Shown piece after piece: positions 3,592 to 38,672 of a DNA stretch of 64,000 nucleotides; position 1 is the first letter of the stretch, and each line of letters opens with the position of its first letter. A program made the position numbers and the translations under genes. Below the pieces are notes generated by a model. The model saw only the letters and a program-made list of their open reading frames with translations, did no database searches and was not told the DNA's origin. The DNA is from Leptotrichia sp. OH3620_COT-345. Its GTDB lineage: Bacteria > Fusobacteriota > Fusobacteriia > Fusobacteriales > Leptotrichiaceae. The stretch covers positions 1-64,000 of the forward strand of contig NZ_RQYW01000004.1 of the NCBI RefSeq assembly GCF_003932895.1, in the 5' to 3' direction.

Positions 3592-3731
3592 TACTTCACT
3601 CCTGTCTGTTCATATATTTTTTATTTTTATAATAAAACTTATTTAAAACTATTCTTACTTATCAGATGAAATAATTGTTATATTTTTATTTTTGTTAGGT
3701 TTTTAAACCTGTTTACAATATATTTTTAAAG

Positions 3732-5159: not shown

Positions 5160-5198
5160 GTTCAGTTTCCTTCCGTAAAAACTCATTGCTATATTATC

Positions 5199-5580: not shown

Positions 5581-5585
5581 GATCG

Positions 5586-7154: not shown

Positions 7155-7215
7155 TTTATATCATTCCTCTCTTCTTTATTCATTTATTTCAGATACTCCG
7201 TATTTCTCTCTGCTT

Positions 7216-17601: not shown

Positions 17602-17694
17602 TTTTCCTCCTTAAACATAATTAGTTAAGTTTGATTTATAAATTATGTGAGTTTATTATCTAAATTTTTTTAATTTATATTAATAAATCCGCCT

Positions 17695-17752
17695 AAAGTC
17701 GGATCCTTTATTTATTGAAATATCTATCATTCGCATATCTCGGACCGACTTT
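17695..17752. other. Long-armed inverted repeat between kduI and the permease genes
   Basis: AAAGTCGG-A-TCC (17695-17706) pairs with GGA-CCGACTTT (17742-17752), leaving one bulged base and a ~35-base A/T-rich loop. No T-run follows on the transcribed strand. It may be an mRNA-stability or processing element, or a regulatory leader. Confidence 0.45.
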
Positions 17753-17829
17753 AAGATCGTTTTTCCATGTATAAGTAACCGTAATTATCAGAAATATAAA
17801 TTTTTTTAATTTTTCTAATTTTATTAAGT

Positions 17830-18666
17830 TTATTTCAATTCTGACATTTTTACAGCATCCATATCGTTAAATTCCTGATTTTCTCCCGCCATTCCCCATA
17901 TGAATGTATAACTGCTCGTTCCCGCTCCTGAATGTATAGACCATGAAGGTGAAATTACACCCTGTTCATTTTTTACTACAAGGTGCCGTGTTTCCTCAGG
18001 TTCTCCCATAAAATGGAATACTCTTGTATCTTCTGTCATATTAAAATAGAAATATACTTCCATTCTTCTTTCATGAGTATGACAAGGCATCGTATTCCAT
18101 ACATTTCCCGGCTCAAGTACAGTCATTCCCATTAAAAGTTGGCATGACTGACATACAGCAGGATGTACAAACTGATATATCGTTCTTGAATTTGAATTTT
18201 CCAGACTTCCCAACTTTACAGGCTTTGCTTTTTCTATATCTATTTTCACATCAGGATACTTTTTGTGTGCGGGAGCTGAATTTATATAATATTTTGCAGG
18301 ATTTTCAGAATCGTCGGATATAAATTTTAACTCTCTCGTTTCCATTCCTATATACAATCCGTCACGTGAATTCATTACATATTCTATTCCATCAGCTATT
18401 ATTTTTCCTTTTCCTCCTACATTTATAACCCCAAGTTCTCTCCTCTCAAGGAAATATTCTGTTCCTAATTCTTTTGTTATTCCCAGTTCTACAGTTTTAT
18501 TCACAGGCATTATCCCCCCTGCTATAATTCTGTCCACATGAGAGTAAGTAAGGGTCACTTCGTTTGCTACAAATATTGTTTCTATTAAATAATTCTCCCT
18601 TAATTTCTCTGTTATATAATGTTTTGAATCTTCCGGATGATTTGCATATCTTGTGTCTATCTTCAT
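17830..18666 (-). CDS. kduI: 4-deoxy-L-threo-5-hexosulose-uronate ketol-isomerase
   Basis: A cytoplasmic isomerase (278 aa, full length) that converts 5-keto-4-deoxyuronate, formed from the product of the glucuronyl hydrolase, to 2,5-diketo-3-deoxygluconate. The cupin metal ligands are visible as C-H-T-H-E-R-R-M-E-V (H196, H198, E203) and I-H-S-G-A-G (H245), the same numbering as E. coli KduI. AGGAGG precedes the ATG. It lies 74 bp downstream of kduD, which performs the next step, so the two are probably co-transcribed from the promoter ahead of kduD. Confidence 0.96.
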   Translation of the reverse strand: MKIDTRYANHPEDSKHYITEKLRENYLIETIFVANEVTLTYSHVDRIIAGGIMPVNKTVELGITKELGTEYFLERRELGVINVGGKGKIIADGIEYVMNSRDGLYIGMETRELKFISDDSENPAKYYINSAPAHKKYPDVKIDIEKAKPVKLGSLENSNSRTIYQFVHPAVCQSCQLLMGMTVLEPGNVWNTMPCHTHERRMEVYFYFNMTEDTRVFHFMGEPEETRHLVVKNEQGVISPSWSIHSGAGTSSYTFIWGMAGENQEFNDMDAVKMSELK

Positions 18667-18740
18667 TTTTCGTCTTTCCTCCTATTATTTTTTTATTCTA
18701 TTCTAAATTTATTTTATATAATTTTTATACAATCTGTGAT

Positions 18741-19511
18741 TTATCTTGACAGCCATGCACCATCTACTGTCAAGGTATGTCCATTTACATAATCTGAAGC
18801 CTTACTTGCTAAAAATATCACGGCTCCCATTAAATCAGACGGCTCTCCCCATCTTCCCGCAGGTATTCTTCCAAGTATTTCTTTATTTCTCTGTTCATCT
18901 TTTCTTATCGGTTCGGTATTTTCAGTTTTTATATATCCCGGAGCTATGGCATTTATCTGTATGTTCTTATCAGCAAGTTCATTAGCAAATGCCCTTGTCA
19001 ATCCTACAACTCCGTGTTTACTTACAGTATAGGGAGGAACAAACTTTCCTCCCTGAAAAGATAACATCGAAGCTATATTTATTATCTTTCCGCTTCCCTG
19101 ACTTACCATTATTTTTGCTGTTTCTCTTCCAAGATGATACACAACATTTAAGTTTATATCCATTACTGCATACCAATCTTCATCTTCATATTCAAGTAAA
19201 GGAGCTCTTCTTATAGTTCCTGCATTATTTACAAGAATATCTATTTTACCGAATTTCCTCATACATGTTTCTATTATTTCCTGTCTGCATTTGGCAACAG
19301 TTAAATCTCCTGTTACAAATTCAACTCTCCTTCCTGTTTTTTCAATAATTTTTTTTATTTCTTCACAATTTTTATCATAAGCTGATATTACCAAGTCTGC
19401 TCCTGCTTTTGCCAGAGCTTCGGAATATGCGGCTCCTATCCCTGTGTTCCCTCCGGTTACTATGGCAACTTTATTTTCCAGAGAGAAATATGTTTTTAAA
19501 AATTCATTCAT
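18741..19511 (-). CDS. kduD: 2-keto-3-deoxygluconate dehydrogenase / 2,5-diketo-3-deoxygluconate reductase (SDR)
   Basis: A short-chain dehydrogenase of 256 aa that reduces 2,5-diketo-3-deoxygluconate to KDG with NAD(P)H. It shows T-G-G-N-T-G-I-G (19-26), N-N-A-G (95-98) and the catalytic set S148, Y161 and K165 (Y-T-V-S-K). SDR assignments are often loose, but adjacency to kduI and the P-F/Y-x-V-S-K-H-G-V-V-G-L context make KduD the best call. GGAGG precedes the ATG. It is the first gene of the GAG locus in transcription order; its product feeds kdgK and eda at 24-25.7 kb. Confidence 0.93.
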   Translation of the reverse strand: MNEFLKTYFSLENKVAIVTGGNTGIGAAYSEALAKAGADLVISAYDKNCEEIKKIIEKTGRRVEFVTGDLTVAKCRQEIIETCMRKFGKIDILVNNAGTIRRAPLLEYEDEDWYAVMDINLNVVYHLGRETAKIMVSQGSGKIINIASMLSFQGGKFVPPYTVSKHGVVGLTRAFANELADKNIQINAIAPGYIKTENTEPIRKDEQRNKEILGRIPAGRWGEPSDLMGAVIFLASKASDYVNGHTLTVDGAWLSR

Positions 19512-24003: not shown

Positions 24004-25023
24004 TTATCTTATTACATCATATGAATCAGTATTTATAATTTTTAAAATATCTTCTTTTTTAAACTCCGACACATCTCCATATATCGTATGTTTCAACACT
24101 CCCGAACCTATTCCGAAGTTTATCATTTCTTCCATTTGGTTCCCTGATAAATATGAATATATTACACCTGAAGTAAAAGCATCTCCCGTTCCCACTCTGT
24201 CCTTTATTTCCACTATATATTCTTTTCCTTTTACAATATTTTCCCCGTTCGTTATTATTCCCGAATAAATATTCCTGTTCGAACTTAACGGTTTCCTTAT
24301 TGAAGAAATTATATATTTAAAATTATATATTTTATATACTTTTTTATATAATTTTTGATAATATTCTTTATAAGTCTCCGTATCATTATATAAATTATGT
24401 TCTATCCCGAAAATTTTAACAAAATCCAAATAACTTGCAAATAATACATCTACATTATTTATAATTTCTTTGTACCTTCTTGAAGCCTCTTCCAAAGAAA
24501 TCAGTTTTGACCTGTAATTACAGTCAAATACAACTTCTTTTTTCAGTTTTTTTGCTATTTTTATCATTCTTTTTGACAGTTCAAATGATTTTTCACTTAC
24601 TGACAATGTTATACCACTTAAAAACAGTACATCATACTTTGATAATATTTTTTCCATTTTTTCATCAGTCATTTCCATTTCGGAAAATGCCGAATATCTT
24701 CTATCATATGTTACTACTGACGGTCGTAATGAATATCCGTTTTCAAGAAAATATATTCCTATTCTTTCTCCGCCTATCTCTATATCATCAGTATCCACAC
24801 CGTATTGCTTCAAGTATTTTATACCTTTATGACCTAAGGCATTATCAGGTACTTTAGTTATATATCCCGACTTTATTCCAAAATTTGATAATGCTATGGA
24901 AATATTAAGCTCAGCTCCTCCATAAAATATTTCAAATACATCCGTATTTGACTGAATTATCATTTTATGCTCCTGTGGAGATAATCTGAGTAATATTTCT
25001 CCAAATGATAAAACTTTTTTCAT
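24004..25023 (-). CDS. kdgK: 2-keto-3-deoxygluconate kinase (PfkB family)
   Basis: A 339-aa ribokinase-type sugar kinase that phosphorylates KDG to KDPG. It begins with F-G-E-I-L-L-R-L-S-P, has the Y-G-G-A-E-L-N-I-S-I-A-L substrate segment, and ends with the PfkB signature D-R-V-G-T-G-D-A-F-T-S-G, where the second Asp is the catalytic base. Its AAAGGAAG ribosome-binding site lies at the very end of eda (4-bp gap), so translation is coupled. With eda it completes the shared lower pathway for both the GAG-derived 4-deoxyuronates and the hexuronates. Confidence 0.94.
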   Translation of the reverse strand: MKKVLSFGEILLRLSPQEHKMIIQSNTDVFEIFYGGAELNISIALSNFGIKSGYITKVPDNALGHKGIKYLKQYGVDTDDIEIGGERIGIYFLENGYSLRPSVVTYDRRYSAFSEMEMTDEKMEKILSKYDVLFLSGITLSVSEKSFELSKRMIKIAKKLKKEVVFDCNYRSKLISLEEASRRYKEIINNVDVLFASYLDFVKIFGIEHNLYNDTETYKEYYQKLYKKVYKIYNFKYIISSIRKPLSSNRNIYSGIITNGENIVKGKEYIVEIKDRVGTGDAFTSGVIYSYLSGNQMEEMINFGIGSGVLKHTIYGDVSEFKKEDILKIINTDSYDVIR

Positions 25024-25027: not shown

Positions 25028-25651
25028 CTAAACTTCCTTTATTTTTAATAAATATTCTTCTGCTGTTTTAACTATATCTTCTTTAGTTCCCTTTACAAGA
25101 TTTCCTCCTATGCCTACTGCCAAAGCACCTGCTTTCAGCCACTCATTTATATTTTCCGTATTCACTCCTCCGGTTACCATAAAGTTTACTTTAGGAATAG
25201 GAGCTTTTAATGATTTTATATAGCTGAAATCAAAATTATTTCCCGGAAACAGTTTAATCAAATCACATCCTGCCTCCAATGCCTGAATTACCTCATTTAC
25301 AGTTTGGCAACCCGGAATATATGGGATTTGGTATCTATTACATAATATAGCGACTTCTTTACTGAAATTCGGTCCCACAATAAATTTTGCTCCTGCAGAT
25401 ATAGCTGTTTTTGCAGTTTCAGAATCAAGTACTGTTCCCGCACCTACAATTATATCACTATCTTCAGAAAAATGTGATATTATTTTTGAAGCAACTTTTA
25501 TCGTATAAGTAACTTCCATAGTTTTTATTCCACCCTCTTTACAGGCTTCAACTACTGAAATAACTTCACTTTCAGAATCTCCCCTGATTACAGCTACTAT
25601 TTTTTCATTTACAAGTTTTTCCAAAGTTGTATATTTTTTAAATATATCCAT
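25028..25651 (-). CDS. eda: KDPG/KHG aldolase
   Basis: A 207-aa class I aldolase that splits 2-keto-3-deoxy-6-phosphogluconate into pyruvate and glyceraldehyde 3-phosphate. The active site is visible: V-I-R-G (R23), K-T-M-E-V-T (E46), and the Schiff-base lysine K133 in L-I-K-L-F-P-G, matching E. coli Eda E45 and K133. AGGAGG lies 10 bases before the ATG. It is preceded by uxaC (20-bp gap). Confidence 0.95.
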   Translation of the reverse strand: MDIFKKYTTLEKLVNEKIVAVIRGDSESEVISVVEACKEGGIKTMEVTYTIKVASKIISHFSEDSDIIVGAGTVLDSETAKTAISAGAKFIVGPNFSKEVAILCNRYQIPYIPGCQTVNEVIQALEAGCDLIKLFPGNNFDFSYIKSLKAPIPKVNFMVTGGVNTENINEWLKAGALAVGIGGNLVKGTKEDIVKTAEEYLLKIKEV

Positions 25652-25671: not shown

Positions 25672-27066
25672 TTAAAATCCGAAATATTCTTTTGCATTGT
25701 TATAACATATATCTTTTACTATTTCCCCTACAAAACCAATATCGTCAGGATATTGTCCGCTTTCTATAAGATTTCCCAGTTTATTACACAATATTCTTCT
25801 AAAATATTCATGTCTCGGGAAAGATAAAAGACTTCTTGAATCTGTAAGCATTCCTATAAATCTGGATAGCATACCTATCTGTGCCAGAGATTCCATCTGC
25901 TTTTCCATTCCGTCTTTTTGATCGTTGAACCACCAACCTGTTCCAAACTGTATTTTCCCGGGAGTTTTTCCATCCTGAAAATTTCCTGCCATGGAAGACA
26001 TTACATCATTATCTTTGGCATTGACATTATACAATATTGTTTTAGGCAGCTTATCTATTTTATCAAGGGAATCAAGGAATTTCGACAAATCATAGGCGAT
26101 ATTCAAGTCATTTATTGAATCATATCCCGCATCAGGACCCAATTTTTCAAATCCTCTTGTAGAATTATTTCTTAAAGGACCTATATGTAGCTGCATTACA
26201 AGGTTTCTTTTATTATACTCTTTTCCCAAAATATTTAAAAGATTTCCTTTATATTTTCTAAGCTCTTCTTTGGAAAGCTTTTCTCCATTAAGCCCTTTTA
26301 TAAAAATCTCTTCAACTTCACTTTCAAAAGCATCAGCATAAAGCATTTCATCAAGTCCGTGATCCGTGACTTTACATCCCGCTTCACAGAAATAATCCAA
26401 CCTTTCAATTAACGCATTTTTTAGTAAAGAATAACTTTCCAGTTTATAACCGACTATTTTGCCTAAATCATTTATATACGAAGCAAATCCGTCTTTTTCA
26501 ATATGAAGTGCTTTGTCAGGTCTGTAAGACGGAAGGACTTTCACTTCAAATTCATCTTTGAGAGCTTTATGATAAGCTAAATCATCTTTAGGATCATCTG
26601 TTGTACATAATACATGAACATTACTTTTTCTTATGAGATTTCTTGCACTGAAATCATCTTTTTTCAAAAGTTCGTTACATCTTTGAAATATAAAGTCTGC
26701 ACTTTTCGGAGATAAAATTTCTTCTATTCCGAATATTCGTCTCAATTCGAGGTGTGTCCAGTGAAATATAGGATTCCCCAAAGTATAGGGAACTGTTTTT
26801 GCCCATTTATCAAACTTTTCTTTCGGACTTTTATTTCCTGTTATATATTCTTCAGTAACTCCATTTACTCTCAGCATCCTCCATTTATAATGGTCAAATG
26901 CTAGCCATGCTTCAGTTATACTCGAAAATTTCTTATCTTCATATATTTCTTTGACACTAAGGTGATTATGATAATCTATTATAGGTATATTTTCAGCATA
27001 TTCATGGTAAAGTCTTTTAGCTGTTTCAGTTTCCAGTAAAAAATCATTATCTAAAAATTTTTTCAT
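25672..27066 (-). CDS. uxaC: Glucuronate/galacturonate isomerase
   Basis: A 464-aa amidohydrolase-superfamily enzyme of usual length that converts D-glucuronate to D-fructuronate (and galacturonate to tagaturonate). The metal motif I-D-Y-H-N-H-L (H33, H35) near the N-terminus, the W-x-H-L-E-L-R-R-I-F-G-I segment and L-L-S-F-P-R-H-E-Y-F-R-R near the C-terminus are family signatures. The SD (AGAAG) is weak. Together with uxuB and uxuA it gives a full glucuronate-to-KDG route, so saturated glucuronate from GAGs or other glycans can also be used. Confidence 0.95.
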   Translation of the reverse strand: MKKFLDNDFLLETETAKRLYHEYAENIPIIDYHNHLSVKEIYEDKKFSSITEAWLAFDHYKWRMLRVNGVTEEYITGNKSPKEKFDKWAKTVPYTLGNPIFHWTHLELRRIFGIEEILSPKSADFIFQRCNELLKKDDFSARNLIRKSNVHVLCTTDDPKDDLAYHKALKDEFEVKVLPSYRPDKALHIEKDGFASYINDLGKIVGYKLESYSLLKNALIERLDYFCEAGCKVTDHGLDEMLYADAFESEVEEIFIKGLNGEKLSKEELRKYKGNLLNILGKEYNKRNLVMQLHIGPLRNNSTRGFEKLGPDAGYDSINDLNIAYDLSKFLDSLDKIDKLPKTILYNVNAKDNDVMSSMAGNFQDGKTPGKIQFGTGWWFNDQKDGMEKQMESLAQIGMLSRFIGMLTDSRSLLSFPRHEYFRRILCNKLGNLIESGQYPDDIGFVGEIVKDICYNNAKEYFGF

Positions 27067-27116: not shown

Positions 27117-27977
27117 TTAAAACATATTTTCATACCCCATTTTTTTCAAATTTCGGGCTGAAAGTTCAAGAGACACAAAAGGGTCAATTCCATATGTATC
27201 ATCTTGTTCTACAAATAAATATTCTGTTCCTGCTTTTACTGCTTCTGTTATTATTTCGGAAAAATCCAAAGTTCCCTCTCCAACTTCGGCAAATTGTATA
27301 CTTCCTACAAAAGCACTCATAAATTCTTCAACTTTTCCCTCTTTTAGATAATCCAATGCTTTTGTATTAAACTTTCCTACTTTGTAATCTTTTAAATGTA
27401 CAAGAGCTGCTTTTCCTTCATATTTCTTCAATATATCCGTAGGATTCAGCCCTCCTCTGTAAATCCAGTGTACATCCAATTCAAATCCTATTTTATCAGC
27501 ACTTTCTCTTATAATATCCAAGATAAATTTCCCTTCATATTTCTCAAATTCTATATGGTGATTATGATAATAAAGTTTTATACCGTATTCAAGAAGCTTT
27601 CCGGCAATTTTATTCATTTTAAAACTGAATTCCTTTATTTTTTCTATATTTCCCATACAGTGAAAAGGTAATATTCCTATTCTTAAATAATTACAATCTA
27701 ATGTTTTGCAATCATTGACTATTTTATCAAAATTATCGGTAAGATTTTCCTGATTCAATCCCTGTACTCCCTCTAGTGCCGCACTCATTGCCGCTATTTT
27801 TATGTTAAAATCTTCCGAAGCTCTTTTTATTTCTCTAATATTTTCTTTAGTCATAGGAATTTGAGATAATTCAATATAGGAATAACCCAGTTCTGAAACT
27901 TTCTTCATTGTTTCATAAGCTCCGAGCTCCTTAAATTTTTCTTTAATCGTCATTGCCTGTACACCTATTTTAGTCAT
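27117..27977 (-). CDS. Sugar isomerase/epimerase-like TIM-barrel protein (AP endonuclease 2 fold), copy 1
   Basis: A 286-aa cytoplasmic protein of the xylose-isomerase-like TIM-barrel family. Family features: E-L-S-Q-I at strand 2, Y-H-N-H-H-I-E-F-E (about 139-147), F-E-L-D-V-H-W-I (about 171-178), L-V-H-L-K-D and F-V-E-Q-D-D, which supply the usual Glu/Asp/His metal ligands. AGGAGG precedes the ATG. Members include 3-keto-sugar epimerases such as E. coli YcjR, IolE-type dehydratases and keto-glycoside lyases. Its direct neighbours are two Gfo/Idh/MocA dehydrogenases, the partner type in those pathways. No substrate can be named. Confidence 0.85.
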   Translation of the reverse strand: MTKIGVQAMTIKEKFKELGAYETMKKVSELGYSYIELSQIPMTKENIREIKRASEDFNIKIAAMSAALEGVQGLNQENLTDNFDKIVNDCKTLDCNYLRIGILPFHCMGNIEKIKEFSFKMNKIAGKLLEYGIKLYYHNHHIEFEKYEGKFILDIIRESADKIGFELDVHWIYRGGLNPTDILKKYEGKAALVHLKDYKVGKFNTKALDYLKEGKVEEFMSAFVGSIQFAEVGEGTLDFSEIITEAVKAGTEYLFVEQDDTYGIDPFVSLELSARNLKKMGYENMF

Positions 27978-27989
27978 AAATATAACCTC

Positions 27990-28985
27990 CTACTTTATTA
28001 TCTTTCCTGAAGATTTTTTTATCATTTCTATCATTTTCATTGACGGAACAGCATCTTTTACATGAATATAGTCATCACTTCCTGTTTCAAGACATTTATA
28101 AAATTTTTGTATTAATTTTTCGTGACTTGCTCCATAATAAAACTTTGTTCCTTCAAGTTTATCATCTTCAGCTAATATTTTTTTATATCCATTTTTTTCA
28201 GAAATTGTAAGAATACTGTCTTTTATTGTAAATTTTGCCTTTTCAGTTATTACTTGAAGCTCGACACTTGAATTTTCCGAATATGTTACTGTAGCAAAAT
28301 AAATTCCTTCTATTCCGTTTTCAAATTTTATTTTTGCCAGTGCCGTATCTTCTATTTCAAATTCACTGTCATGATCCTCTAGATTTACTGTTACACCCTT
28401 TATATTTTTAATTTTTCCTCCTATAAGCTGCATTAAATCTAAAGTATGAATAGTCTGATTTATCATAACTCCGCCTCCCGAATACTCCATCTTTTTCCTC
28501 CATGGCTTTAAATTATAATATTCATCAGTTCTGTTCCATGTGACAATGCCTTTTATTCCTTTGACTTTTCCGTAACTTCCCGATTTTATAAATTCCATCA
28601 TTTTTTCAAATGTTCTATTCAATCTATTTTGTAAACATACGCATATTTTTATATGAGGATTTTTTTCTTCTATTTCTAAAAGTTTATTTGTCTGGAAGAC
28701 ATCTATTCCCACAGGCTTTTCAAGAAATACATTAATTTCCTTTTCGATCGCTTCTTTAGCTACTTTATAATGTAAATAATGGGGTAAACAGATATGTACA
28801 CAGTCAGGATTTTCTTTTTCGAGCATTTCTCTATAATCACTGTAAAACTTATAGTCGGGATATTTTCTTTTCAATGTTCCGTCAATATCACACATTGCCG
28901 AAATTCTTATATTTCCAAGTTTTTTCAGTGCATTAATATGTATGCTTGAAATATCTCCCAACCCGATAACACAGACTTTTTTCAT
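27990..28985 (-). CDS. Gfo/Idh/MocA-family NAD(P)-dependent oxidoreductase, copy 1
   Basis: A 331-aa oxidoreductase: an N-terminal Rossmann fold with V-I-G-L-G-D-I (6-12), the family F-L-E-K-P-V-G motif (about residues 90-96, with the catalytic Lys), and a C-terminal alpha/beta substrate domain containing N-Q-T-I-H-T-L-D-L-M, where His and Asp are typical of the active site. AAGGAG precedes the ATG, 12 bp from the TIM-barrel gene downstream. Likely substrates are sugars, sugar acids or glycosides oxidized at one hydroxyl. Confidence 0.87.
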   Translation of the reverse strand: MKKVCVIGLGDISSIHINALKKLGNIRISAMCDIDGTLKRKYPDYKFYSDYREMLEKENPDCVHICLPHYLHYKVAKEAIEKEINVFLEKPVGIDVFQTNKLLEIEEKNPHIKICVCLQNRLNRTFEKMMEFIKSGSYGKVKGIKGIVTWNRTDEYYNLKPWRKKMEYSGGGVMINQTIHTLDLMQLIGGKIKNIKGVTVNLEDHDSEFEIEDTALAKIKFENGIEGIYFATVTYSENSSVELQVITEKAKFTIKDSILTISEKNGYKKILAEDDKLEGTKFYYGASHEKLIQKFYKCLETGSDDYIHVKDAVPSMKMIEMIKKSSGKIIK

Positions 28986-29009
28986 AAAATTTCTCCTTAC
29001 ATATATTTT

Positions 29010-30176
29010 TTACTGCTTCTCTTCGTATTTTCCCTCTTTTCTTATCCTGTTATTAAGTAAATCGAGATATTCCCTTTCATTCAGCTCATAATTCACTTCT
29101 TTTCCCAGCCAAGCTGATAAATGCATAGCATTTGCAAGTCTTACTCCGTTAATTCCTTCTCTGCCTGCTGCCAGTAAGGGATCTCCGTTTAAAATATGAG
29201 CTGCAAAATTTTCAAGAACATTTATATGCTGCTCTCCGTGACGAGAATCAAATTCTAATACTTCTTCATCATACATTTCCTCAGGATCTAGCTGTCCTTT
29301 GAAAAGCTTTATCACATCTTCCATACTCATATCGTTACTTAGAATTTCTTCATCTTTTTTAAGAGTTTTTATTGTCAGCTTTTTACTGTTCTCTACTATA
29401 ATTTTTCCTTTATCTCCTAAAATTTCAAAATAATCCGTTCCCAAAATATCATGAGTACATGTTATAAAACTTCCTGTCACTCCATTTCCAAAGTCTACGA
29501 GGGCATTTACTTCATCTTCCACGACTATATCCCTTTTAAACCCAAATGCCATTTTTGCAAAAACTTTTTTAGGTTTTCCACATATCCATTGCCATAAATC
29601 CAATTGATGAGGTGCCTGATTTACAAGTACTCCTCCTCCTTCACCACCCCATGTAGCTCTCCATTCAGACTGGTTATAATATCCTTGAGGACGCCACCAT
29701 GTAGTAATTATCCAGACTGTTCTTCTCATATTTCCTATGACTTTATTATCCATCAGTTCTTTTACTTTTCTATATAAAGGATTTGTTCTCTGATTGAAAA
29801 ATATGGCGAAAGTTACGTCAGGATGTTCCTCTGAAACTTTAATAAGTCTTTTTACATCTTTAGTATACACTCCTGCAGGTTTTTCTCCTAACAGATGTAT
29901 GCCTCTTTTTATAGCTTCTATACCCATTTCACAATGAAAATAATGAGGAACCGTAGTTACTATGGCATCTACAAGACCACTGTCAAGCATGTCTTTATAA
30001 TTTTTAAAAAACTTTATATCAGGAAAACTTTCCTTTACTTTTTTTTCTTTTTCAATATCTATATCACATACTGCAGTCAGTTTAAGATTTTCGGAAAGTT
30101 TTTTTTCTTTAAAGAAACTTGCATACAATCCTCCTTCGGCTCCATAGCCTATTATTCCTAATCTGATTTTTTTCAT
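29010..30176 (-). CDS. Gfo/Idh/MocA-family NAD(P)-dependent oxidoreductase, copy 2
   Basis: A 388-aa oxidoreductase with a Rossmann start G-I-I-G-Y-G-A-E-G, L-G-E-K-P-A-G and N-Q-A-P-H-Q-L-D-L-W, followed by a longer C-terminal domain than copy 1. The T-T-W-W-R-P-Q-G-Y-Y segment before the active site recalls enzymes acting on glycosides or bulky sugars. It is not a recent duplicate of copy 1, so the two probably oxidize different substrates or act in opposite directions. GGGAG precedes the ATG; the gene starts 3 bp after the TIM-barrel copy 2 stop. Confidence 0.87.
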   Translation of the reverse strand: MKKIRLGIIGYGAEGGLYASFFKEKKLSENLKLTAVCDIDIEKEKKVKESFPDIKFFKNYKDMLDSGLVDAIVTTVPHYFHCEMGIEAIKRGIHLLGEKPAGVYTKDVKRLIKVSEEHPDVTFAIFFNQRTNPLYRKVKELMDNKVIGNMRRTVWIITTWWRPQGYYNQSEWRATWGGEGGGVLVNQAPHQLDLWQWICGKPKKVFAKMAFGFKRDIVVEDEVNALVDFGNGVTGSFITCTHDILGTDYFEILGDKGKIIVENSKKLTIKTLKKDEEILSNDMSMEDVIKLFKGQLDPEEMYDEEVLEFDSRHGEQHINVLENFAAHILNGDPLLAAGREGINGVRLANAMHLSAWLGKEVNYELNEREYLDLLNNRIRKEGKYEEKQ

Positions 30177-30179
30177 ATA

Positions 30180-31070
30180 TTAATCAACTCCCAATTCATT
30201 TAATATTTTTATTAATGCTCTGTATTGTAATATGTACCCTTCTTCTCCCGTCAATTTTTTTTCATTTTTTATAATTTCATCGATATTTCCCAATTCGAGA
30301 TTTTTCAATCCCTCAAATTGGGCAAGATGAGGTTCAAGGGTTAAAAACCCCTTATAACTTCTTTTTAAAATAATATCAGATAAAATTTCCTTTATTTTCC
30401 CCTCTCCCGTTCCACAGACTACATTTTGGCCGTCTTCATAATTTGCATCTTTTATATGAATATACACAATATCGTCTTTTAAAAGTTCATATGCTTTTAA
30501 TGTATCTTCTCCACACTGAATAAAATTTGCAAAGTCAAATGCTATTTTAAAACTTGGGGAATTTACTTCAATTATTATTTCTTTACATCTTTGAAAAGTA
30601 TCTCCATAAATATCTTTTTCATTTTCATGAATAAGTATTATTCCTTCATTTTCAGCTATTTGTGCAAATTTTTTCAACTTTTTAATAACGTTTTCCTTGT
30701 ATTTTTTATGCTCCCCGTTTTTTATGTAAAAACTGAAAATTCTTATATATTCCGTCTTTGTCAGTTTAGCTATACGGCAAAGTTCTTTAAGTATTTTCAG
30801 CTGATTTTCATAACTTCTCTCATCATCAATAAATATTTTTCCTATAGGCGAACCTAAAGACGATACTTTTATGTTGTTTTTTTTCAGTTTTGGAAATATT
30901 TTTTCCTTAAATTCTTCAAATGAATATTCTCCTATATTTTTTCCGTCTATATTTCTGAGAGAAATATAGCTCATACTATTTTCCTTTACAACTTTTATTT
31001 GTTTATCAAGTTCAGCTGAAATTTCATCAGAAAATCCCGATATAAATATTTCGCTGTTAATTTTTTTCAT
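30180..31070 (-). CDS. Sugar isomerase/epimerase-like TIM-barrel protein, copy 2
   Basis: A 296-aa protein from the preferred start. Visible family segments are I-L-I-H-E-N-E, I-A-F-D-F-A-N-F, Y-I-H-I-K-D-A and F-L-T-L-E-P-H, supplying the Glu-Asp-His-Glu metal set. The longest ORF begins at 31106 and would overlap uxuB by 32 bp; the ATG at 31068-31070 follows GGGAG at a normal distance and removes the overlap. It is clearly different in sequence from copy 1. Between uxuB and a Gfo/Idh gene in one operon, it probably acts on a keto-sugar or keto-acid made by the dehydrogenases. Confidence 0.82.
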   Translation of the reverse strand: MKKINSEIFISGFSDEISAELDKQIKVVKENSMSYISLRNIDGKNIGEYSFEEFKEKIFPKLKKNNIKVSSLGSPIGKIFIDDERSYENQLKILKELCRIAKLTKTEYIRIFSFYIKNGEHKKYKENVIKKLKKFAQIAENEGIILIHENEKDIYGDTFQRCKEIIIEVNSPSFKIAFDFANFIQCGEDTLKAYELLKDDIVYIHIKDANYEDGQNVVCGTGEGKIKEILSDIILKRSYKGFLTLEPHLAQFEGLKNLELGNIDEIIKNEKKLTGEEGYILQYRALIKILNELGVD

Positions 31071-31074: not shown

Positions 31075-31920
31075 TCACACTCCCGAATATGCTGAAAATC
31101 CTCCATCTACAGGTATTATAACTCCATTTACGAAACTTGCCGCTTCTTCATTTATAAGAAAAAATAATACACCGAGTAATTCCTCTTCTTTTCCGAATCT
31201 TTTCATAGGAGTATTTCTTAAAATTTTTTCGGCTCTTTCTTTAGGTGTCCCATCGTCATTAAATAAAAGTTTTTCATTTTGTTTACTTACAAAAAATCCC
31301 GGTGCTATAGCATTACATCTTATTCCTACATTGCTGAAATGAACTGCAAGCCATTGTGTAAAATTGCTGATGGCAGCTTTAGCTCCGCTATATGCAGGAA
31401 TTTTTGTGAGAGGTGTATAAGCATTCATACTTGAAATATTTACTATATTTGCACCTTTTCTGCCTATCATATCCTGAGCGAAAACCTGTACGGGAAGCAA
31501 TGTTCCCATATAATTCAGATTAAATACAAATTCCACTCCCTCTTTGTCCAAATCAAAAAATGTTTTCACTTTACCTGAATCTTCAGGTTTAAATATTTCG
31601 TTATCGGTTGTAGCTTTAGGATTGTTACCTCCTGCTCCGTTTATTAAAATATCACATTTTCCAAGTTCATTATTTATTTTTTCTCTCACTTTTTCTATAC
31701 TTTCTTTATTCAGTACATCACATTTATAACCTTCGGCAACACCTTTTTCACTTTTTATTTCTTCTGCATATTTTTTGACAATCTCTTCATTTATGTCAAG
31801 AAGAGCAACTTTTGCTCCTGTTTTTGAAAGGGCTTTGGCAAACATACTGCATAAAACTCCCCCTGCTCCTGTTATTACTATTACTTTGTCTTTCATATTC
31901 ATTTCAAAAGGTATTTTCAT
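31075..31920 (-). CDS. uxuB: D-mannonate oxidoreductase / fructuronate reductase, SDR type
   Basis: A 281-aa short-chain dehydrogenase that reduces D-fructuronate to D-mannonate. It shows T-G-A-G-G-V-L (18-24), N-G-A-G-G-N-N (94-100), Y177 and K181 in Y-S-G-A-K, and the long insert (D-L-D-K-E-G-V-E) usual in the Bacillus/Thermotoga-type enzyme. This family is not the same as the long-chain E. coli UxuB. Its position beside uxaC and uxuA supports the call. The SD (AAGGAAG) is unusually far from the ATG. The spacer upstream of it is repeat copy B. Confidence 0.88.
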   Translation of the reverse strand: MKIPFEMNMKDKVIVITGAGGVLCSMFAKALSKTGAKVALLDINEEIVKKYAEEIKSEKGVAEGYKCDVLNKESIEKVREKINNELGKCDILINGAGGNNPKATTDNEIFKPEDSGKVKTFFDLDKEGVEFVFNLNYMGTLLPVQVFAQDMIGRKGANIVNISSMNAYTPLTKIPAYSGAKAAISNFTQWLAVHFSNVGIRCNAIAPGFFVSKQNEKLLFNDDGTPKERAEKILRNTPMKRFGKEEELLGVLFFLINEEAASFVNGVIIPVDGGFSAYSGV

Positions 31921-32363: not shown

Positions 32364-33398
32364 TTAAAATTTTTTCAATGTTTCCCAGATGCCGGTCATA
32401 TACATTGCACCTAATGCTCTGTCATACAGTCCATATCCCGGTTTTCCTATTTCTCCCCATATCATTCTTCCATGATCGGGTCTTATATATCCGTTAAATC
32501 CAGTTTCATAGTATGCTTTCAATATTTCCGCTACATCAAGGCTTCCATACGGAGAATAATGGGCACTTTCTTCAAAGCTGCCGTCTTCAAGTATTTTTAC
32601 ATTTCTTATATGTGCAAAATGTATTCTTCCCATACTACTGTATTTTTTCACCATCTTCACAAAATCATTTTTTCTGCTACATCCTAAACTTCCGCTACAT
32701 AAAGTTAATCCATTGTGGGAATCATCATATAACTTTAAAAATCTATCCAGACTTTCTTCATCTTTTATTATTCTCGGTATTCCGAATATCGACCAAGGCG
32801 GATCATCTGGATGTATGCCCATGTCTATATCACATTCTATAGCTACAGGAATAATTTTCTCAAGAAAATATTTTAAATTATCCCAAAGCCCCTCTTCTCC
32901 GAGTTTTTTATAAGCTTCTATTAGTTCTTTCATTTCTTCAGAAGTATAAGATGAATCCCAACCCGGTAATTCAAGCTTTGTAGGATCAAGTTTATCTATA
33001 TGTTCCTTATAATAAACTAAGGCATTTGAACCATCAGCAAGTTCTTTATCCAACTGACTTCTTGTCCAGTCAAAGACAGGCATAAAATTGTAACATATTA
33101 CTTTTACTCCTGCTTTTGAAAGTCTTCTTATATTCTCTTTATAATTTTCAATATAAGTTTTATAATTACCTCTTCTCAGTTTTATGTCTTCATGTACAGG
33201 AACACTTTCAATTACTTCCATTTTCATTCCGTGCTTTTCTATTTCCTTTTTCAAATCAAGAATGTCTTTTTCAGGCCACACTTCTCCCGGCGGTACACTG
33301 TAAACTGCAGTAACTATTCCATACATATTAGGTATCTGACGAATTTTTTCAAGAGTTACTAGATCGTCTTTTCCATACCATCTGAAAGTCATTTTCAT
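32364..33398 (-). CDS. uxuA: Mannonate dehydratase
   Basis: A 344-aa enzyme that dehydrates D-mannonate to KDG. Conserved UxuA segments are visible: M-T-F-R-W-Y-G (3-9), M-G-I-H-P-D-D-P-P-W, L-C-S-G-S-L-G-C, I-H-F-A-H-I-R-N-V and R-P-D-H-G-R, which provide the His/Cys/Asp metal ligands. GGGAGG precedes the ATG. It follows the GH3 gene (39-bp gap) and completes the glucuronate branch into KDG. Confidence 0.95.
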   Translation of the reverse strand: MKMTFRWYGKDDLVTLEKIRQIPNMYGIVTAVYSVPPGEVWPEKDILDLKKEIEKHGMKMEVIESVPVHEDIKLRRGNYKTYIENYKENIRRLSKAGVKVICYNFMPVFDWTRSQLDKELADGSNALVYYKEHIDKLDPTKLELPGWDSSYTSEEMKELIEAYKKLGEEGLWDNLKYFLEKIIPVAIECDIDMGIHPDDPPWSIFGIPRIIKDEESLDRFLKLYDDSHNGLTLCSGSLGCSRKNDFVKMVKKYSSMGRIHFAHIRNVKILEDGSFEESAHYSPYGSLDVAEILKAYYETGFNGYIRPDHGRMIWGEIGKPGYGLYDRALGAMYMTGIWETLKKF

Positions 33399-33437: not shown

Positions 33438-35144
33438 TTATCTTTTAGTTTCCCACTTATTACACCATACATTTTCATTATATTTCCCTTTAAAATCCGA
33501 TTTTCCTGTAATCTTTTCTATGGTCTGCTTTATTATTTCCCTTGTATTGTTGTAAGCATTTATATATGTTTTTACCATAGGTACATCTGTCAGATGGGTA
33601 GTATAATTTAATGATACAAACACTGTAGGTACTTCCCATACGAACCAGGGAATTTCATTTGACATGGCACACGACCATCTTATACGATAATTATTTTCCA
33701 CAGCATAACCTCTTATATCGGAAAATACAAATGCTGCATCATATTTTTTCCTGTATTCTTCTATTTTTCCTTTTTCTCTTATTCCTCTTTCATTGAGTTC
33801 CACTTCAAATCCAGCTTTTTCAAGTTCTTCTATTATTACTGAAGCTGTTGTATTTTTTTCAGCCTTATAAACACTTTTTTCCTCATTTGTCAGGACATAA
33901 AGCTTTATCCTTTTATGTGTTTCAGGATTAATAGGCAATTCTCCCAGTGTATTTTTGACAAGAGTTATCCCTAAATCCGCTGCCTCAGCAGCCATTTTTT
34001 TATGTTCTTCACAGCCTATTATACTTAAATTTTCTTTTTTAGGCAGTAGATCATTATTTTTCTTTTTTTCATGAAGTCCGATAGCGGCTTTAAGTCCCAA
34101 AATTCTTCTAAGAGCATCGATAAGTCTTTCTTCTGTTATAATCCCGCTTTTATATCCGTCCATCATATATTTAAAATCTTCATCCATATCATTAAAAAAT
34201 AGAAACATATCACAACCTGCCTGTATTGCTCTTGGAACATAATCTTTTCTTCTCATTGCGGCTGTCATTCCAAGCATATGTGATGCATCGGTAATTACGA
34301 GACCGTTAAAATTCAATTGCTTTTTCAATAGTTCCGTTATAAGTTCAGGAGCTAAAGTAGCAGGCATAATTTCTTCATACTTTATTTCAGGAACAAGTTT
34401 TTTTGAGTATTCAGGAAGTGCTATATGTCCTGCCATAATTGCCATTATTCCATCATCAATCATTGTTTTATAGACTTTCCCGAAAGTCTTGTCCCATTCA
34501 TCTATCGATAATTCATTTACTCCAAGTACAAGGTGCTGGTCTCTTTCCTCGGTACCATCTCCCGGAAAATGTTTGATTGTGGAGACTATATTACTTTGTC
34601 TTAATCCTTTTACATAACTTCTTATATGTTTCAGGACTGTATCTGCATTTGTACCGTAAGATCTGGTGTTTACTATAGTGTTTCTCCAATTCATTACAAT
34701 ATCCGAACATGGATCAAAATTCCAGTTACAGCCGATTGCAGTAGCTTCCTTTCCGCTTACAAGTCCTGCGTTATAGGAAACCTGTTCTGAATCTGTTGCT
34801 TCACACTGGGCTGCTGTTGCAATATATGTACCGTCTTTACATGCTCCATCGCCTCCATTGTCACAGTTACAAGCAATAAACATAGGAATTTTACTGTTCT
34901 TTTGCAATTTTTCGGAAAAACCGAATACATCTTCAGAGTTTGCCGCATGATATCTTGCTCCTCCCAAGTGATACCTGCCTAGTTTTTCTTTTATATTTTC
35001 TTCATTGAAATCAAAAAACAACTGAAAAAATAACTGTCCGATTTTTTCTTCATCAGTCATATTCTTTATAGTTTCTTCTACCCATTCAATATCTTTATCA
35101 GACAGATAATAAGGTTTTTCTTTTAAGTTAACTTTTTCAGACAT
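33438..35144 (-). CDS. Glycoside hydrolase family 3 beta-N-acetylhexosaminidase-like enzyme (NagZ type)
   Basis: A 568-aa cytoplasmic enzyme (no signal peptide). The GH3 barrel carries K-H-F-P-G (191-195), the D-x-H dyad D202-Q-H204 typical of NagZ-type enzymes, and the nucleophile D286 in V-I-T-D-A-S. A C-terminal alpha/beta domain follows. NagZ-type GH3 enzymes remove beta-linked GlcNAc, some by phosphorolysis. Next to uxuA it may release hexosamine from imported oligosaccharides such as saturated GAG fragments or peptidoglycan pieces. AAGGAGG precedes the ATG. The exact substrate is unknown. Confidence 0.88.
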   Translation of the reverse strand: MSEKVNLKEKPYYLSDKDIEWVEETIKNMTDEEKIGQLFFQLFFDFNEENIKEKLGRYHLGGARYHAANSEDVFGFSEKLQKNSKIPMFIACNCDNGGDGACKDGTYIATAAQCEATDSEQVSYNAGLVSGKEATAIGCNWNFDPCSDIVMNWRNTIVNTRSYGTNADTVLKHIRSYVKGLRQSNIVSTIKHFPGDGTEERDQHLVLGVNELSIDEWDKTFGKVYKTMIDDGIMAIMAGHIALPEYSKKLVPEIKYEEIMPATLAPELITELLKKQLNFNGLVITDASHMLGMTAAMRRKDYVPRAIQAGCDMFLFFNDMDEDFKYMMDGYKSGIITEERLIDALRRILGLKAAIGLHEKKKNNDLLPKKENLSIIGCEEHKKMAAEAADLGITLVKNTLGELPINPETHKRIKLYVLTNEEKSVYKAEKNTTASVIIEELEKAGFEVELNERGIREKGKIEEYRKKYDAAFVFSDIRGYAVENNYRIRWSCAMSNEIPWFVWEVPTVFVSLNYTTHLTDVPMVKTYINAYNNTREIIKQTIEKITGKSDFKGKYNENVWCNKWETKR

Positions 35145-35172: not shown

Positions 35173-35967
35173 TTATTTTCTCTCTAAATTTCTTTTAAAT
35201 CTGTCTATCAGTTCATTCTGATATTCTCCTCTATACTCATGCTTCAGAAATTTGTCCTTGGCTTTCTTTATAAGCTCTATCCACATTTCTTCTTCCTTTC
35301 CGGATATAATAGGATAAAACAGTACATTATTCTTCTGTGCAGCTTCCAAATCTCCGGGAGAATCCCCTATCATAAGTATTTTTTTATTTTCGTATCCATA
35401 TTTTCTTATTTTTTCAAGACAGTCACTTTTTGTACCGTCTTCTTGGGAAAAAACTGTATCGGTATATTTCAGTATATTATGTCTTGACCATTCGCTTATA
35501 ATTGCTTCCCTATTAGCTGAAGAAACTATTACAATATCTGATACCGAACTGATATTTTCCAACGCTTCCTTTACACCTCTGAAAGGTCTGTCCGTTTTTT
35601 CCAGTTCCTTTATTCCCAAATTCACATTTCTACTCCAATTAAGAAGCTTTTTCAACTGTTCTCCTTTTTTTGATTCTTTTTTTGTTTTTTCCAATTTCTT
35701 TATTTCCTTTTCCAGAGATATGTTTGACAGTTCGTCGGTATTATTTATCCAATTTTCTATCATATCAATGTCTCCAACCTCTTCCCCTGTTTCTTTCATT
35801 TTTTTAAAAGCCGCGAAAAATCCTTTAAATCTATTAATTCCCCTTGTTTCTGAATATAAATTTACATCATTCCATATTTTCATAAATTTATTTTTATTCT
35901 TTATCTTCCACTCTTCTATAAGTAACGGACCGAAATACTTTTTATGTTTTACATCCATGGTGTCCAT
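35173..35967 (-). CDS. HAD-superfamily hydrolase; reading frame lacks a proper start because of an A9 tract
   Basis: The open part encodes 264 aa with HAD motif II (V-I-V-S-S-A-N), motif III lysine (G-T-K-S-D) and motif IV (I-G-D-S-P-G-D), a beta-phosphoglucomutase/phosphatase-like layout with a helical cap. Read upstream of the internal ATG, the same frame gives Y-I-V-C-I-D-S-D-G-C-A, the nucleophile motif I, so the real protein must start earlier. The only plausible ATG (36021-36023) is out of frame, separated by nine As (plus-strand T run 36005-36013); one extra A would join it. It is the first gene before GH3 and uxuA. It may be a sugar-phosphate phosphatase. Confidence 0.75.
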   Translation of the reverse strand: MDTMDVKHKKYFGPLLIEEWKIKNKNKFMKIWNDVNLYSETRGINRFKGFFAAFKKMKETGEEVGDIDMIENWINNTDELSNISLEKEIKKLEKTKKESKKGEQLKKLLNWSRNVNLGIKELEKTDRPFRGVKEALENISSVSDIVIVSSANREAIISEWSRHNILKYTDTVFSQEDGTKSDCLEKIRKYGYENKKILMIGDSPGDLEAAQKNNVLFYPIISGKEEEMWIELIKKAKDKFLKHEYRGEYQNELIDRFKRNLERK

Positions 35968-36140: not shown

Positions 36141-36168
36141 ATTATACCTTCTTTTTTTTAAAATGCAA
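36141..36168 (-). promoter_or_regulatory. Candidate promoter for the HAD-GH3-uxuA transcript
   Basis: On the minus strand: TTGCAT, 16 bases, TATAAT. It lies about 120 bases before the HAD ATG, back to back with the transporter promoter. Confidence 0.6.
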
Positions 36169-36186
36169 ATTTTTATTTTTAATCTA

Positions 36187-36214
36187 TTGACAATTTTGAT
36201 TTTTGTATTATAAT
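36187..36214 (+). promoter_or_regulatory. Promoter for the GPH transporter gene
   Basis: TTGACA, 16 bases, TATAAT. The predicted transcript start near 36221 leaves a ~64-base leader that contains candidate operator 2 and an AGGAGG SD at 36272-36277. Confidence 0.7.
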
Positions 36215-36242
36215 TTTAACATAAGATAATAATGGAATATAA

Positions 36243-36257
36243 TTTCATAATATGGAA
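36243..36257. promoter_or_regulatory. Candidate operator 2 (TTTCATAATATGGAA on the plus strand)
   Basis: Nearly the same 15-base palindrome as operator 1, at about +22 to +36 of the transporter transcript. A protein bound there would block elongation, as repressors do. Confidence 0.5.
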
Positions 36258-36284: not shown

Positions 36285-37736
36285 ATGAAAAATGAAAATA
36301 TTGTTTACAATCGAGCTAAATTATGGCAAATTGGATTATTTTCACTCAATAATACTGCTACAAATATCTTTCTTGCACTTATGTTTTATGTAGGATATTA
36401 TGCTACCGGATTTGTTGGACTTGCTACCGTTCTTATATCCAATATTCTTACTTCAATGAGAATATTTGACGGTATTACAGATCCTTTAATAGGTTACTTG
36501 ATTGATAGGACTGAAGGAAAATTAGGAAAATTCAGACCGTATATAGTTACCGGTTATATTATTATGGTCATTTCCACTATCCTTTTATTCAAAGTTACCC
36601 ATACATTACCTGAAAATATAAGATTACTTTTCTTCCTTATTATTTACGCAATCTACATAATCGGATATACATGTCAGACTGCAGTTACTAAAGCCGGACA
36701 AGCTTGTATTACCAATGATCCGAAACAGCGTCCTTTATTCGGTGCTTTTGACGGTACTTTTACTTTATTATTATTTTCATGTTTTCTACCTGTTTATGTA
36801 AACGGATATTTGCTGCCGAAATATGGAAATGAATTTTCTTTATTGCTGTTTAATGAGCTGCTGTTTACTTTTATAGCTATAAGCGGTGTTCTTACAATCT
36901 TATCTTTTATCGGAATTTATCAGAAAGATCGTAAAGAATTTTTCGGACTGGGAGAAAAAAATGCCAAACTCGGATTTTCTGATTATATAGATATTATAAT
37001 TCATAACAGAGCTATTCAAATGCTTATAATTGCAGCTTCTACTGACAAAATAGCTTCCTCTACGGCAAGTAATGCCGCTGTAGGAATTATGATATACGGT
37101 ATTATTATGGGAGATAATACGCTACAGGCAAAATTGGGGCTGATTACAATTATTCCCGCTTTCCTTTTATTGCAATTTTTTGTCCAGTATGCAAGAAAAC
37201 TGGGAATAAAAAAGGGGCTTGTTGTTACAGCTTGGGGGTCAATGATTTCTTTTTCTCTGATTTTCTTCCTTTTAAAGTTCGGGGATCCTACTAAAATAAG
37301 ATTAAGCAACTTGTTCAGTTTTGAAACTTTAGGATTTATAATTTTATGGTGTATCGGAAGGGGAATTTCAGGAGCAGGAGGGGGACTTACTATAAATGCT
37401 ATTGCCGATTGTGCCGATTATGAAACATATAGAACAGGAAAATATATACCGGGAATGATGGGAACTCTTTTCTCTTTCGTAGATAAACTTATTTCTTCAA
37501 TGGCAACTACAATAGTAGGACTGGTAGTTGCAGGAATAGGTTATACAAAAGGGTTTCCAAAAATTGGAGATCCTAATACTCCTCAAATGTTTTATGCTGC
37601 TACTTTCCTATTCTTAGGAATGCCTGTATTAGGATGGATTGCTTCAATTATTGCATTAAAATTTTATCCTTTAAGTGCAGAAAAAATGGAAGAAATTCAG
37701 GTCCATATAAGTTCACTGAAAAACTCTTCGCAATAA
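36285..37736 (+). CDS. Glycoside-pentoside-hexuronide (GPH) family sugar:cation symporter
   Basis: A 483-aa membrane protein with about 12 hydrophobic segments. The GPH/MelB-type loop R-I-F-D-G-I-T-D-P-L-I-G-Y-L-I-D-R-T between helices 2 and 3, then G-K-x-G-K-F-R-P-Y-I, is clearly present (about residues 58-86). Members import uronides, beta-glucuronides and related glycosides with Na+ or H+. An AGGAGG SD precedes the ATG. Divergent from the HAD-GH3-uxuA genes and followed by an IclR regulator, it probably imports the hexuronate or glycoside that this second cluster degrades, separate from the ABC system for GAG oligosaccharides. Confidence 0.9.
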   Translation: MKNENIVYNRAKLWQIGLFSLNNTATNIFLALMFYVGYYATGFVGLATVLISNILTSMRIFDGITDPLIGYLIDRTEGKLGKFRPYIVTGYIIMVISTILLFKVTHTLPENIRLLFFLIIYAIYIIGYTCQTAVTKAGQACITNDPKQRPLFGAFDGTFTLLLFSCFLPVYVNGYLLPKYGNEFSLLLFNELLFTFIAISGVLTILSFIGIYQKDRKEFFGLGEKNAKLGFSDYIDIIIHNRAIQMLIIAASTDKIASSTASNAAVGIMIYGIIMGDNTLQAKLGLITIIPAFLLLQFFVQYARKLGIKKGLVVTAWGSMISFSLIFFLLKFGDPTKIRLSNLFSFETLGFIILWCIGRGISGAGGGLTINAIADCADYETYRTGKYIPGMMGTLFSFVDKLISSMATTIVGLVVAGIGYTKGFPKIGDPNTPQMFYAATFLFLGMPVLGWIASIIALKFYPLSAEKMEEIQVHISSLKNSSQ

Positions 37737-37889: not shown

Positions 37890-37922
37890 TAATTGAATAA
37901 TAATATACGAGGAGATTTACTT

Positions 37923-38672
37923 ATGAACCTTCAACCGAGCGTACAGTCTTTAGACAGGGCACTGAATATTCTTGAAATCCTTTCCGTTAATGAAGTTTTG
38001 ACTCTTTCAGATATTACCGAATATTCAGGACTCACAAAACCAACAGTTCATCGTTTACTGGCAACTTTAATAAAAAACGGATATGTGGAAAAAATTAATT
38101 CAGGAGAATATAGAACTACTTTAAAACTTTTTAAACTGGGAAGTCAAAGAATTCAGAAAATTGATTTTATGAATATCACTCGAAGCTTTGCAAGCCAACT
38201 TTCACTGGATACAAACGAAACTGTCCATATCGTCATTCAAGATGATACCGAAGTTTTATACATAGATAAATTTGAAGCTGAAAATGCTCTTTTTAAAACA
38301 GCTTCAAAAATAGGAAAAACCGCTCCCCTCTATTCTACAGCTGTAGGCAAGGTATTACTTGCCTCATATAATAACTTTGATATTCACAATATGTGGAATA
38401 ATTTTAAATTGAAAAAATTTACTGAAAATACTATAGTTGATTTAAATGAATTTATGAAAGAAATTGAAAAAATACGAACAAACGGTTATGCTATTGATAA
38501 TGAAGAAAACGAATACGGAACTTACTGTATAGGCGCAGCTTTTTACAACTATTCTAAAAAACCCGTAGGAGCGATAAGCCTGTCAACTTCAGCCGCAAAT
38601 CCGAAAAAAGATGAATATATAAATAAAGTACTCATATGTGCAAACAGGATTTCAGGAATGCTTGGTTATTAA
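37923..38672 (+). CDS. IclR-family transcriptional regulator (KdgR-like)
   Basis: A 249-aa regulator from the preferred start. N-terminal winged helix: S-V-Q-S-L-D-R-A-L-N-I-L-E-I-L, L-S-D-I-T-E-Y-S-G-L-T-K-P-T-V-H-R-L-L (recognition helix, about 30-48) and G-Y-V-E-K. The C-terminal effector domain has G-K-T-A-P-L-Y-S-T-A-V-G-K and D-N-E-E-N-E-Y-G-T-Y-C-I-G-A. IclR regulators beside uronate genes (KdgR, for example) respond to KDG or a related acid, which fits here. The longest ORF begins at a TTG (37893), but GAGGAG sits 7 bases before the ATG at 37923. The gene ends at a strong terminator. Confidence 0.9.
   Translation: MNLQPSVQSLDRALNILEILSVNEVLTLSDITEYSGLTKPTVHRLLATLIKNGYVEKINSGEYRTTLKLFKLGSQRIQKIDFMNITRSFASQLSLDTNETVHIVIQDDTEVLYIDKFEAENALFKTASKIGKTAPLYSTAVGKVLLASYNNFDIHNMWNNFKLKKFTENTIVDLNEFMKEIEKIRTNGYAIDNEENEYGTYCIGAAFYNYSKKPVGAISLSTSAANPKKDEYINKVLICANRISGMLGY

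Follow-up and report, generated by a model that had tools for sequence, protein, structure and literature searches.

Four adjacent genes in a 64,000-nucleotide stretch of Leptotrichia sp. OH3620_COT-345 (positions 1 to 64,000 of contig NZ_RQYW01000004.1, assembly GCF_003932895.1; hereafter the window) probably encode a cassette that splits glucuronides by C3 oxidation, elimination, hydration and reduction and passes the released glucuronate to the glucuronate isomerase UxaC, as judged from comparisons of sequence and structure. The four genes are all on the minus strand and are, in the direction of transcription, TIM1 (30180..31070), Gfo1 (29010..30176), Gfo2 (27990..28985) and TIM2 (27117..27977). 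Gfo1 and Gfo2 belong to the Gfo/Idh/MocA dehydrogenase family (PF01408 at 62 and 70 bits, respectively, each with PF22725/PF02894), while TIM1 and TIM2 are xylose-isomerase-like TIM barrels (PF01261 at 85 and 56 bits, respectively).

In the proposed route, a glucuronide would be imported, possibly via the GPH-family symporter encoded nearby, and Gfo1 would oxidize C3 of its glucuronosyl ring. TIM2, working as a divalent-metal eliminase in which His140 takes the C2 proton, would then expel the aglycone and leave a 2-hydroxy-3-keto-glucal-type uronate, to which TIM1 would add water to form 3-keto-glucuronate; where TIM1 is absent, TIM2 itself might perform the hydration. Gfo2 would reduce 3-keto-glucuronate to glucuronate and thereby regenerate the oxidized cofactor, and UxaC, the mannonate oxidoreductase, UxuA, KdgK and Eda would degrade the glucuronate. 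We infer the identity of the substrate, the redox direction of each step and the role of TIM1 as the hydratase.

The cleavage chemistry itself is already known (Bitter 2023). In the glucoside operon of Agrobacterium, which encodes GlycDH, AtOGE, AtHYD and a Gfo reductase, as well as in analogous operons for levoglucosan and puerarin, two oxidoreductases and two TIM barrels account for oxidation, elimination, hydration and reduction (PMC10628242). The preliminary description of this DNA, in which the four genes were thought to lie outside known pathways, is superseded on this point by these operons and by the 52% identity of Gfo1 to a named glucuronide dehydrogenase. The window shares with the Agrobacterium operon the set of two oxidoreductases and two TIM barrels, here recognized by homology. 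The two differ in that the window cassette appears to be directed at uronides and coupled to uronate catabolism, and in that the first enzyme is the flavoenzyme GlycDH in Agrobacterium and a Gfo dehydrogenase here.

The dehydrogenases Gfo1 and Gfo2

Gfo1 is very probably a glucuronide 3-dehydrogenase. Its nearest solved protein, 8TDI, matches over the whole length with 437 bits and 52% identity, while its next solved relative reaches only about 100 bits, and the EKP motif (residues 98-100 of Gfo1) and the GGGVLVNQAPHQLD motif are common to Gfo1 and 8TDI. The N186-Q187-xx-H190 motif of Gfo1 is invariant. The depositors named the molecule of 8TDI 'P2B11 Glucuronide-3-dehydrogenase', and because of this match and this name glucuronides are the likely substrate class of Gfo1. 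What sets Gfo1 apart from P2B11 is its position in a full Ashwell operon together with Gfo2, TIM1 and TIM2. A study by Nasseri et al. in 2024 (Nature 631:199) is the likely source of 8TDI and may already cover glucuronides.

Gfo2 shares only about 31-33% identity with Gfo1. The two non-identical Gfo/TIM-barrel pairs of the preliminary description are better read as one four-step set. A profile built from 30 Gfo2 members was closest to the solved proteins 3Q2I (223 bits) and 3Q2K (212 bits), followed by 8TDI (185 bits). K90, N176, Q177 and H180 of Gfo2 are invariant among the 30 orthologues, and the N-Q-x-x-H motif is common to Gfo2, Gfo1, 8TDI and 3Q2I/3Q2K. Database names for 3Q2I and 3Q2K give only dehydrogenase or oxidoreductase; we take them to be WlbA enzymes, that is, UDP-N-acetylglucosaminuronate (UDP-GlcNAcA) 3-dehydrogenases, which oxidize C3. 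WlbA acts on a nucleotide sugar in biosynthesis, whereas Gfo2 is encoded in a catabolic operon. We slightly favor Gfo2 as a putative 3-keto-glucuronate reductase.

The TIM-barrel proteins TIM2 and TIM1

TIM2 can be assigned with good confidence, by homology, as a 3-keto-glucuronide 1,2-lyase (beta-eliminase). Its profile matched AtOGE (8BVK) best among the solved structures (5.5e-28), followed by the 8TCD/8TCS/8TCT group of AL1/BT1 lyases. The AlphaFold2 (AF2) model of TIM2, with a predicted local distance difference test (pLDDT) score of 95.6, gave the same picture in Foldseek, where AL1 (8TCD/8TCR) and BT1 (8TCT), both 3-keto-beta-glucopyranoside-1,2-lyases, and AtOGE were at the top and AtHYD was at rank 41. 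AtOGE coordinates its metal through His132, Asp163, His189 and, weakly, Glu233, and the variant in which its catalytic His134 is replaced by Ala is inactive (PMC10628242). In our alignments these four ligands and the catalytic His correspond to H138, D168, H194, E257 and H140 of TIM2, all of which are invariant among 44 orthologues. TIM2 is ~20-24% identical to the known 1,2-lyases, which act on 3-keto-glucosides, whereas TIM2 presumably acts on 3-keto-glucuronides.

TIM1 is the least certain step of the scheme. In the structure prediction that the preliminary description called for, the AF2 model of TIM1 (pLDDT 90.7) had as its closest Foldseek neighbors Art22, AsbF and IolE-type proteins, which differ in function, and AtHYD (8RO4), a 2-hydroxy-3-keto-glucal hydratase with which TIM1 shares only the fold, was at rank 12. 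No 1,2-lyase was found among the 50 TIM1 matches listed. Sequence searches of TIM1 against solved structures likewise gave distant matches to Art22, AsbF and epimerases only. Given that the order of fold ranks is reversed between TIM1 and TIM2 and that the four-step scheme (PMC10628242) needs a hydratase, the hydratase is our best guess for TIM1, and it is offered as a guess that may well be wrong.

The uronate operon

The four cassette genes are intact open reading frames (ORFs), packed between uxaC and uxuB as the preliminary description had it. The minus-strand gaps are 4 bp between uxuB and TIM1, 3 bp between TIM1 and Gfo1, 24 bp between Gfo1 and Gfo2, 12 bp between Gfo2 and TIM2, and 50 bp between TIM2 and uxaC, so that the gaps within the cassette are 3-24 bp. 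The start of TIM1 was taken as 31070; the longest ORF, from 31106, would run into uxuB.

The complete set for conversion of glucuronate to 2-keto-3-deoxy-6-phosphogluconate (KDPG) and its cleavage, also noted in the preliminary description, was found in this single cluster on the minus strand: uxaC (25672..27066; NF002794 at 630 bits, cut-off 387), a short-chain dehydrogenase/reductase (SDR)-type D-mannonate oxidoreductase in the uxuB role (31075..31920; NF006132 at 449 bits, cut-off 281), the mannonate dehydratase gene uxuA (32364..33398; NF003027 at 483 bits, cut-off 191), the KDPG aldolase gene eda (25028..25651; NF005119 at 266 bits, cut-off 238) and a PfkB-family kinase (24004..25023; PF00294 at 116 bits), to which the kdgK role was given by its family and its position beside eda only. 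In the direction of transcription the genes follow one another as HAD hydrolase, GH3, uxuA, mannonate oxidoreductase, cassette, uxaC, eda and kdgK. A 443-bp AT-rich gap parts uxuA from uxuB, because of which the cassette may have a promoter of its own.

Conserved linkage across genomes

Neighborhoods were surveyed around Gfo1 in 80 genomes, mostly of Bacillota and Actinomycetota with one of Spirochaetota, in which Gfo1 was 56-67% identical to that of the window. These 80 loci are the best 80 of 577 found and thus a non-random sample. The range covered was ~10 kb, and presence was scored by tblastn because ORF calling was unreliable in the high-GC loci of Actinomycetota. TIM2 was found near Gfo1 in 75 of the 80 loci, Gfo2 in 68, uxaC in 54 and TIM1 in 52; the GPH gene (25), GH3 gene (24), uxuB-like SDR gene (21) and GH2 glucuronidase-like gene (10) were less frequent. 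At least one of uxaC, uxuA, a uxuB-like gene and a GH2 beta-glucuronidase-like gene was present in 63 of the loci. By comparison, uxaC, uxuA, uxuB, TIM1 and TIM2 were found in none of 20 control loci around other Gfo genes in related genomes. Since the set recurs beside uxaC in both Bacillota and Actinomycetota, against 0/20 controls, the linkage is above chance, and the co-occurrence of the cassette with uxa/uxu genes expected in the preliminary description is borne out.

The exact contiguous order TIM1-Gfo1-Gfo2-TIM2 was found in 13 of these loci besides the window. One further genome of the genus of the window has this order along with uxaC, eda, kdgK, uxuB and uxuA. Another family contributes two genomes, in which a GPH symporter gene and a beta-glucuronidase gene (NF007538 at 778 bits, cut-off 544) come after the four genes. 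Nearest in gene content is the operon of Trichococcus, with IclR, eda, uxaC, uxuA, uxuB, HAD, GH3, an AraC-type regulator, Gfo1, Gfo2, TIM2 and Gfo3 genes; the HAD gene beside GH3 is kept in Trichococcus, and the same neighbors occur in loci L027-L031. In a quick tree of Gfo1, Trichococcus formed the sister group to the window Gfo1 (SH-aLRT 100), which suggests, from the sequences compared, horizontal exchange with Bacillota; 8TDI was placed on a long branch among the same Bacillota sequences. A search of viral contigs with a single-sequence pattern found no relatives.

Several loci of the survey had features of their own. L029 (MUZD01000001.1) is recorded as Sedimentibacter sp. SX930, and its Gfo1 and operon are nested inside Trichococcus; the organism name on this record is probably wrong. 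L022, L023 and L024, from a related genus whose genomes are mostly larger (these three measure 3.2-4.5 Mb), have Gfo1, Gfo2 and Gfo3 along with uxuA, uxuB, eda and kdgK, and no orthologue of either TIM1 or TIM2 was found within range. Thirteen loci of Bacillota (L033:15625-21124, L032, L058, L098 and others) carry the cassette together with a nickel-pincer isomerase of the LarA superfamily (nickel-pincer nucleotide, NPN, group 22); uxaC is present in 10 of them, gntK in 9, gnd in 9 and uxuA in none. This gene content fits a bypass that would lead from mannonate via gluconate to 6-phosphogluconate; LarA enzymes of other groups are known to have this epimerase activity (PMC7583248).

Exchange of TIM1 for Gfo3

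Of the 80 loci, 52 have TIM1 only, 20 have Gfo3 only, none has both and 8 have neither. This mutual exclusion (Fisher p ~9e-13, with relatedness ignored) appears to be new and is the part of the system least covered by the literature that we found. Gfo3, with L027:13114-14217 as its reference and further copies at L022:12028-13101, L023:12162-13235 and L024:5190-6263, is also a member of the Gfo/Idh/MocA family, and its nearest solved proteins, 2P2S and 3U3X, are both named only as oxidoreductases. On the Gfo1 tree the TIM1/Gfo3 state switches at seven points, and the starred branches require the Gfo3 label to have changed at least four times. A TIM1 homologue (E 1e-20) was not found in 19 of the 20 genomes with the Gfo3 cassette, and the remaining one had a 29% match; a Gfo3 gene was found elsewhere in the genome in 4 of 22 TIM1 genomes.

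The simplest reading of this pattern of presence is that TIM1 and Gfo3 fill the same need. A wider reading, which we put forward tentatively and regard as possible rather than likely, is that of a dedicated oxidative glucuronidase pathway that is found in at least three phyla, is hard-wired to glucuronate catabolism and has two unrelated solutions for one step, TIM1 or Gfo3, which would catalyze the same and possibly non-redox reaction, such as 3-keto-glucuronal hydration. The exchange offers a handle on the identity of the enzyme of the hydration step.

Alternative readings

Several observations weigh against the four-step cassette as proposed. The activity of 8TDI is taken from the molecule name given by its depositors, and the nearest solved relatives of TIM1 are of mixed function. 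TIM1 was also not in range in 28 of the 80 loci. Several relatives hold a beta-glucuronidase gene in the same operon, and the GH4 genes that the host carries outside the operon could also act on uronides.

The same cleavage chemistry could be accompanied by another use of the second pair, with TIM2 both eliminating and hydrating, Gfo1 working reversibly, and TIM1 and Gfo2 forming a specificity or salvage branch, which could serve, for instance, a different anomer, galacturonides or a keto intermediate formed in error. The loci that lack TIM1, the lack of Gfo2 in 12 of the 80 loci and the interchangeability of TIM1 with Gfo3 would all fit such a branch. Loci without TIM1, however, usually have Gfo3, because of which the TIM1 step seems to be needed, not optional, and the four genes are contiguous and in the same order in the window and the 13 other loci. 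We consider this second use of the pair unlikely on balance.

The preliminary description had proposed an oxidize-epimerize/eliminate-reduce module that feeds the uronate pathway, with kinship to E. coli YcjS/YcjR. If the module worked by epimerization, C3 oxidation of a free sugar acid or a glycoside, epimerization by a TIM barrel and reduction would let an unusual hexuronate stereoisomer enter as glucuronate, and no bond would be cleaved. E. coli YcjQ/YcjR/YcjS is indeed a set of Gfo, TIM-barrel and Gfo genes, annotated as 3-dehydrogenases and a 4-epimerase, and YcjR was at ranks 31 and 33 in the Foldseek list of TIM1, along with many ketose epimerases. However, YcjS is only 21% identical to Gfo1 and 23% to Gfo2 and has D in place of their N within the GGGxxxNQxxH motif, YcjR was matched by hhalign with a probability of only 62% for TIM1 and 23% for TIM2, and Gfo1 is a near-orthologue of the glucuronide dehydrogenase, not of YcjS. 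The best sequence and fold relatives of TIM2 are lyases whose catalytic His is kept, and the co-occurring GH2, GH3 and GPH genes point to glycosides. Thus, elimination is clearly better supported than epimerization, since TIM2 best matches the 1,2-lyases and the similarity to YcjR is weak; of the proposed module the eliminative part stands, and an epimerizing one is improbable.

Inositol catabolism, with an IolE-like dehydratase and IolG-like dehydrogenases, had been named in the preliminary description as a pathway to which the genes might belong instead, and the nearest named equivalogs are IolE in the case of TIM2 and IolG in that of Gfo1 and Gfo2, but this was rejected on equivalog scores and context as highly improbable, with TIM2 at 42 against a cut-off of 290, Gfo1 and Gfo2 at 97-99 against 355, no iol gene in the operon and a linkage to uxaC that spans two phyla.

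Neighboring genes and candidate substrates

Upstream of uxuA on the minus strand lie two accessory genes, for a phosphorylase-like GH3 enzyme (33438..35144) and a HAD-family hydrolase (35173..35967; PF13419 at 51 bits). The GH3 enzyme matches the BglX/BglP phosphorylase 5VQD over its full length with 430 bits, and its RDQH at residues 201-204 is of the His/Asp dyad type. The genes for the GPH-family symporter (36285..37736, + strand; TIGR00792 at 151 bits, below the cut-off of 231), which is probably a glucuronide importer, and a KdgR-like IclR-family regulator (37893..38672, + strand; NF011671 KdgR at 169 bits, below the cut-off of 275) adjoin each other and are divergent from the operon. GPH and GH3 genes are thus both nearby, as the preliminary description had reported, with the refinement that the GPH gene is on the plus strand. 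The divergent HAD/GPH intergenic region (36141-36243) matches the sigma-70 type perfectly at 36187-36214 (+), with TTGACA-16-TATAAT, and less well at 36169-36141 (-).

A second stretch of the window, 2401-19511, is likely a glycosaminoglycan-use locus according to its predicted genes. It encodes a GH88 enzyme (2401-3591), a sulfatase (3732-5201), a 522-aa protein with no Pfam or NCBIfam match (5586-7154), a hyaluronate-lyase-like PL8 lyase (7216-9585), an ABC sugar transporter (13951-17601) and KduI and KduD (17830-19511). An autotransporter-like protein of 1442 aa is encoded within the same stretch.

No match to GH2 or GH67 was found in the host genome, which is 99.6% complete, while two intact GH4 matches were found. 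A search for GH79 in the host genome was uninformative, as none of the control genomes gave a match. A GH4 match at G000 C5:18380-18923 (L110, L111) is split over two frames with internal stops and is probably a pseudogene or an assembly error.

Given that the host genome has no GH2 match, the oxidative route could replace the classical beta-glucuronidase in the host. We suggest, short of proof, that the cassette in the host would act either on saturated glucuronosyl ends or on glucuronides of other kinds, with the hexosamine side left to the GH3 enzyme. In relatives whose operons contain a beta-glucuronidase gene, the cassette is not required merely for ordinary beta-glucuronides, and it may serve for alpha-, S- or C-glucuronides or for glucuronides that are resistant in some other way.

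Implications

Glucuronate is a main component of glycosaminoglycans, and animals excrete drugs and hormones as glucuronides. Microbial release of glucuronate is usually sought through beta-glucuronidase genes. A host with no detectable GH2 beta-glucuronidase and with a PL8/sulfatase/GH88 locus nearby is apparently a new lead, and surveys limited to GH2 would overlook genomes like this one, in which the oxidative route is apparently complete.

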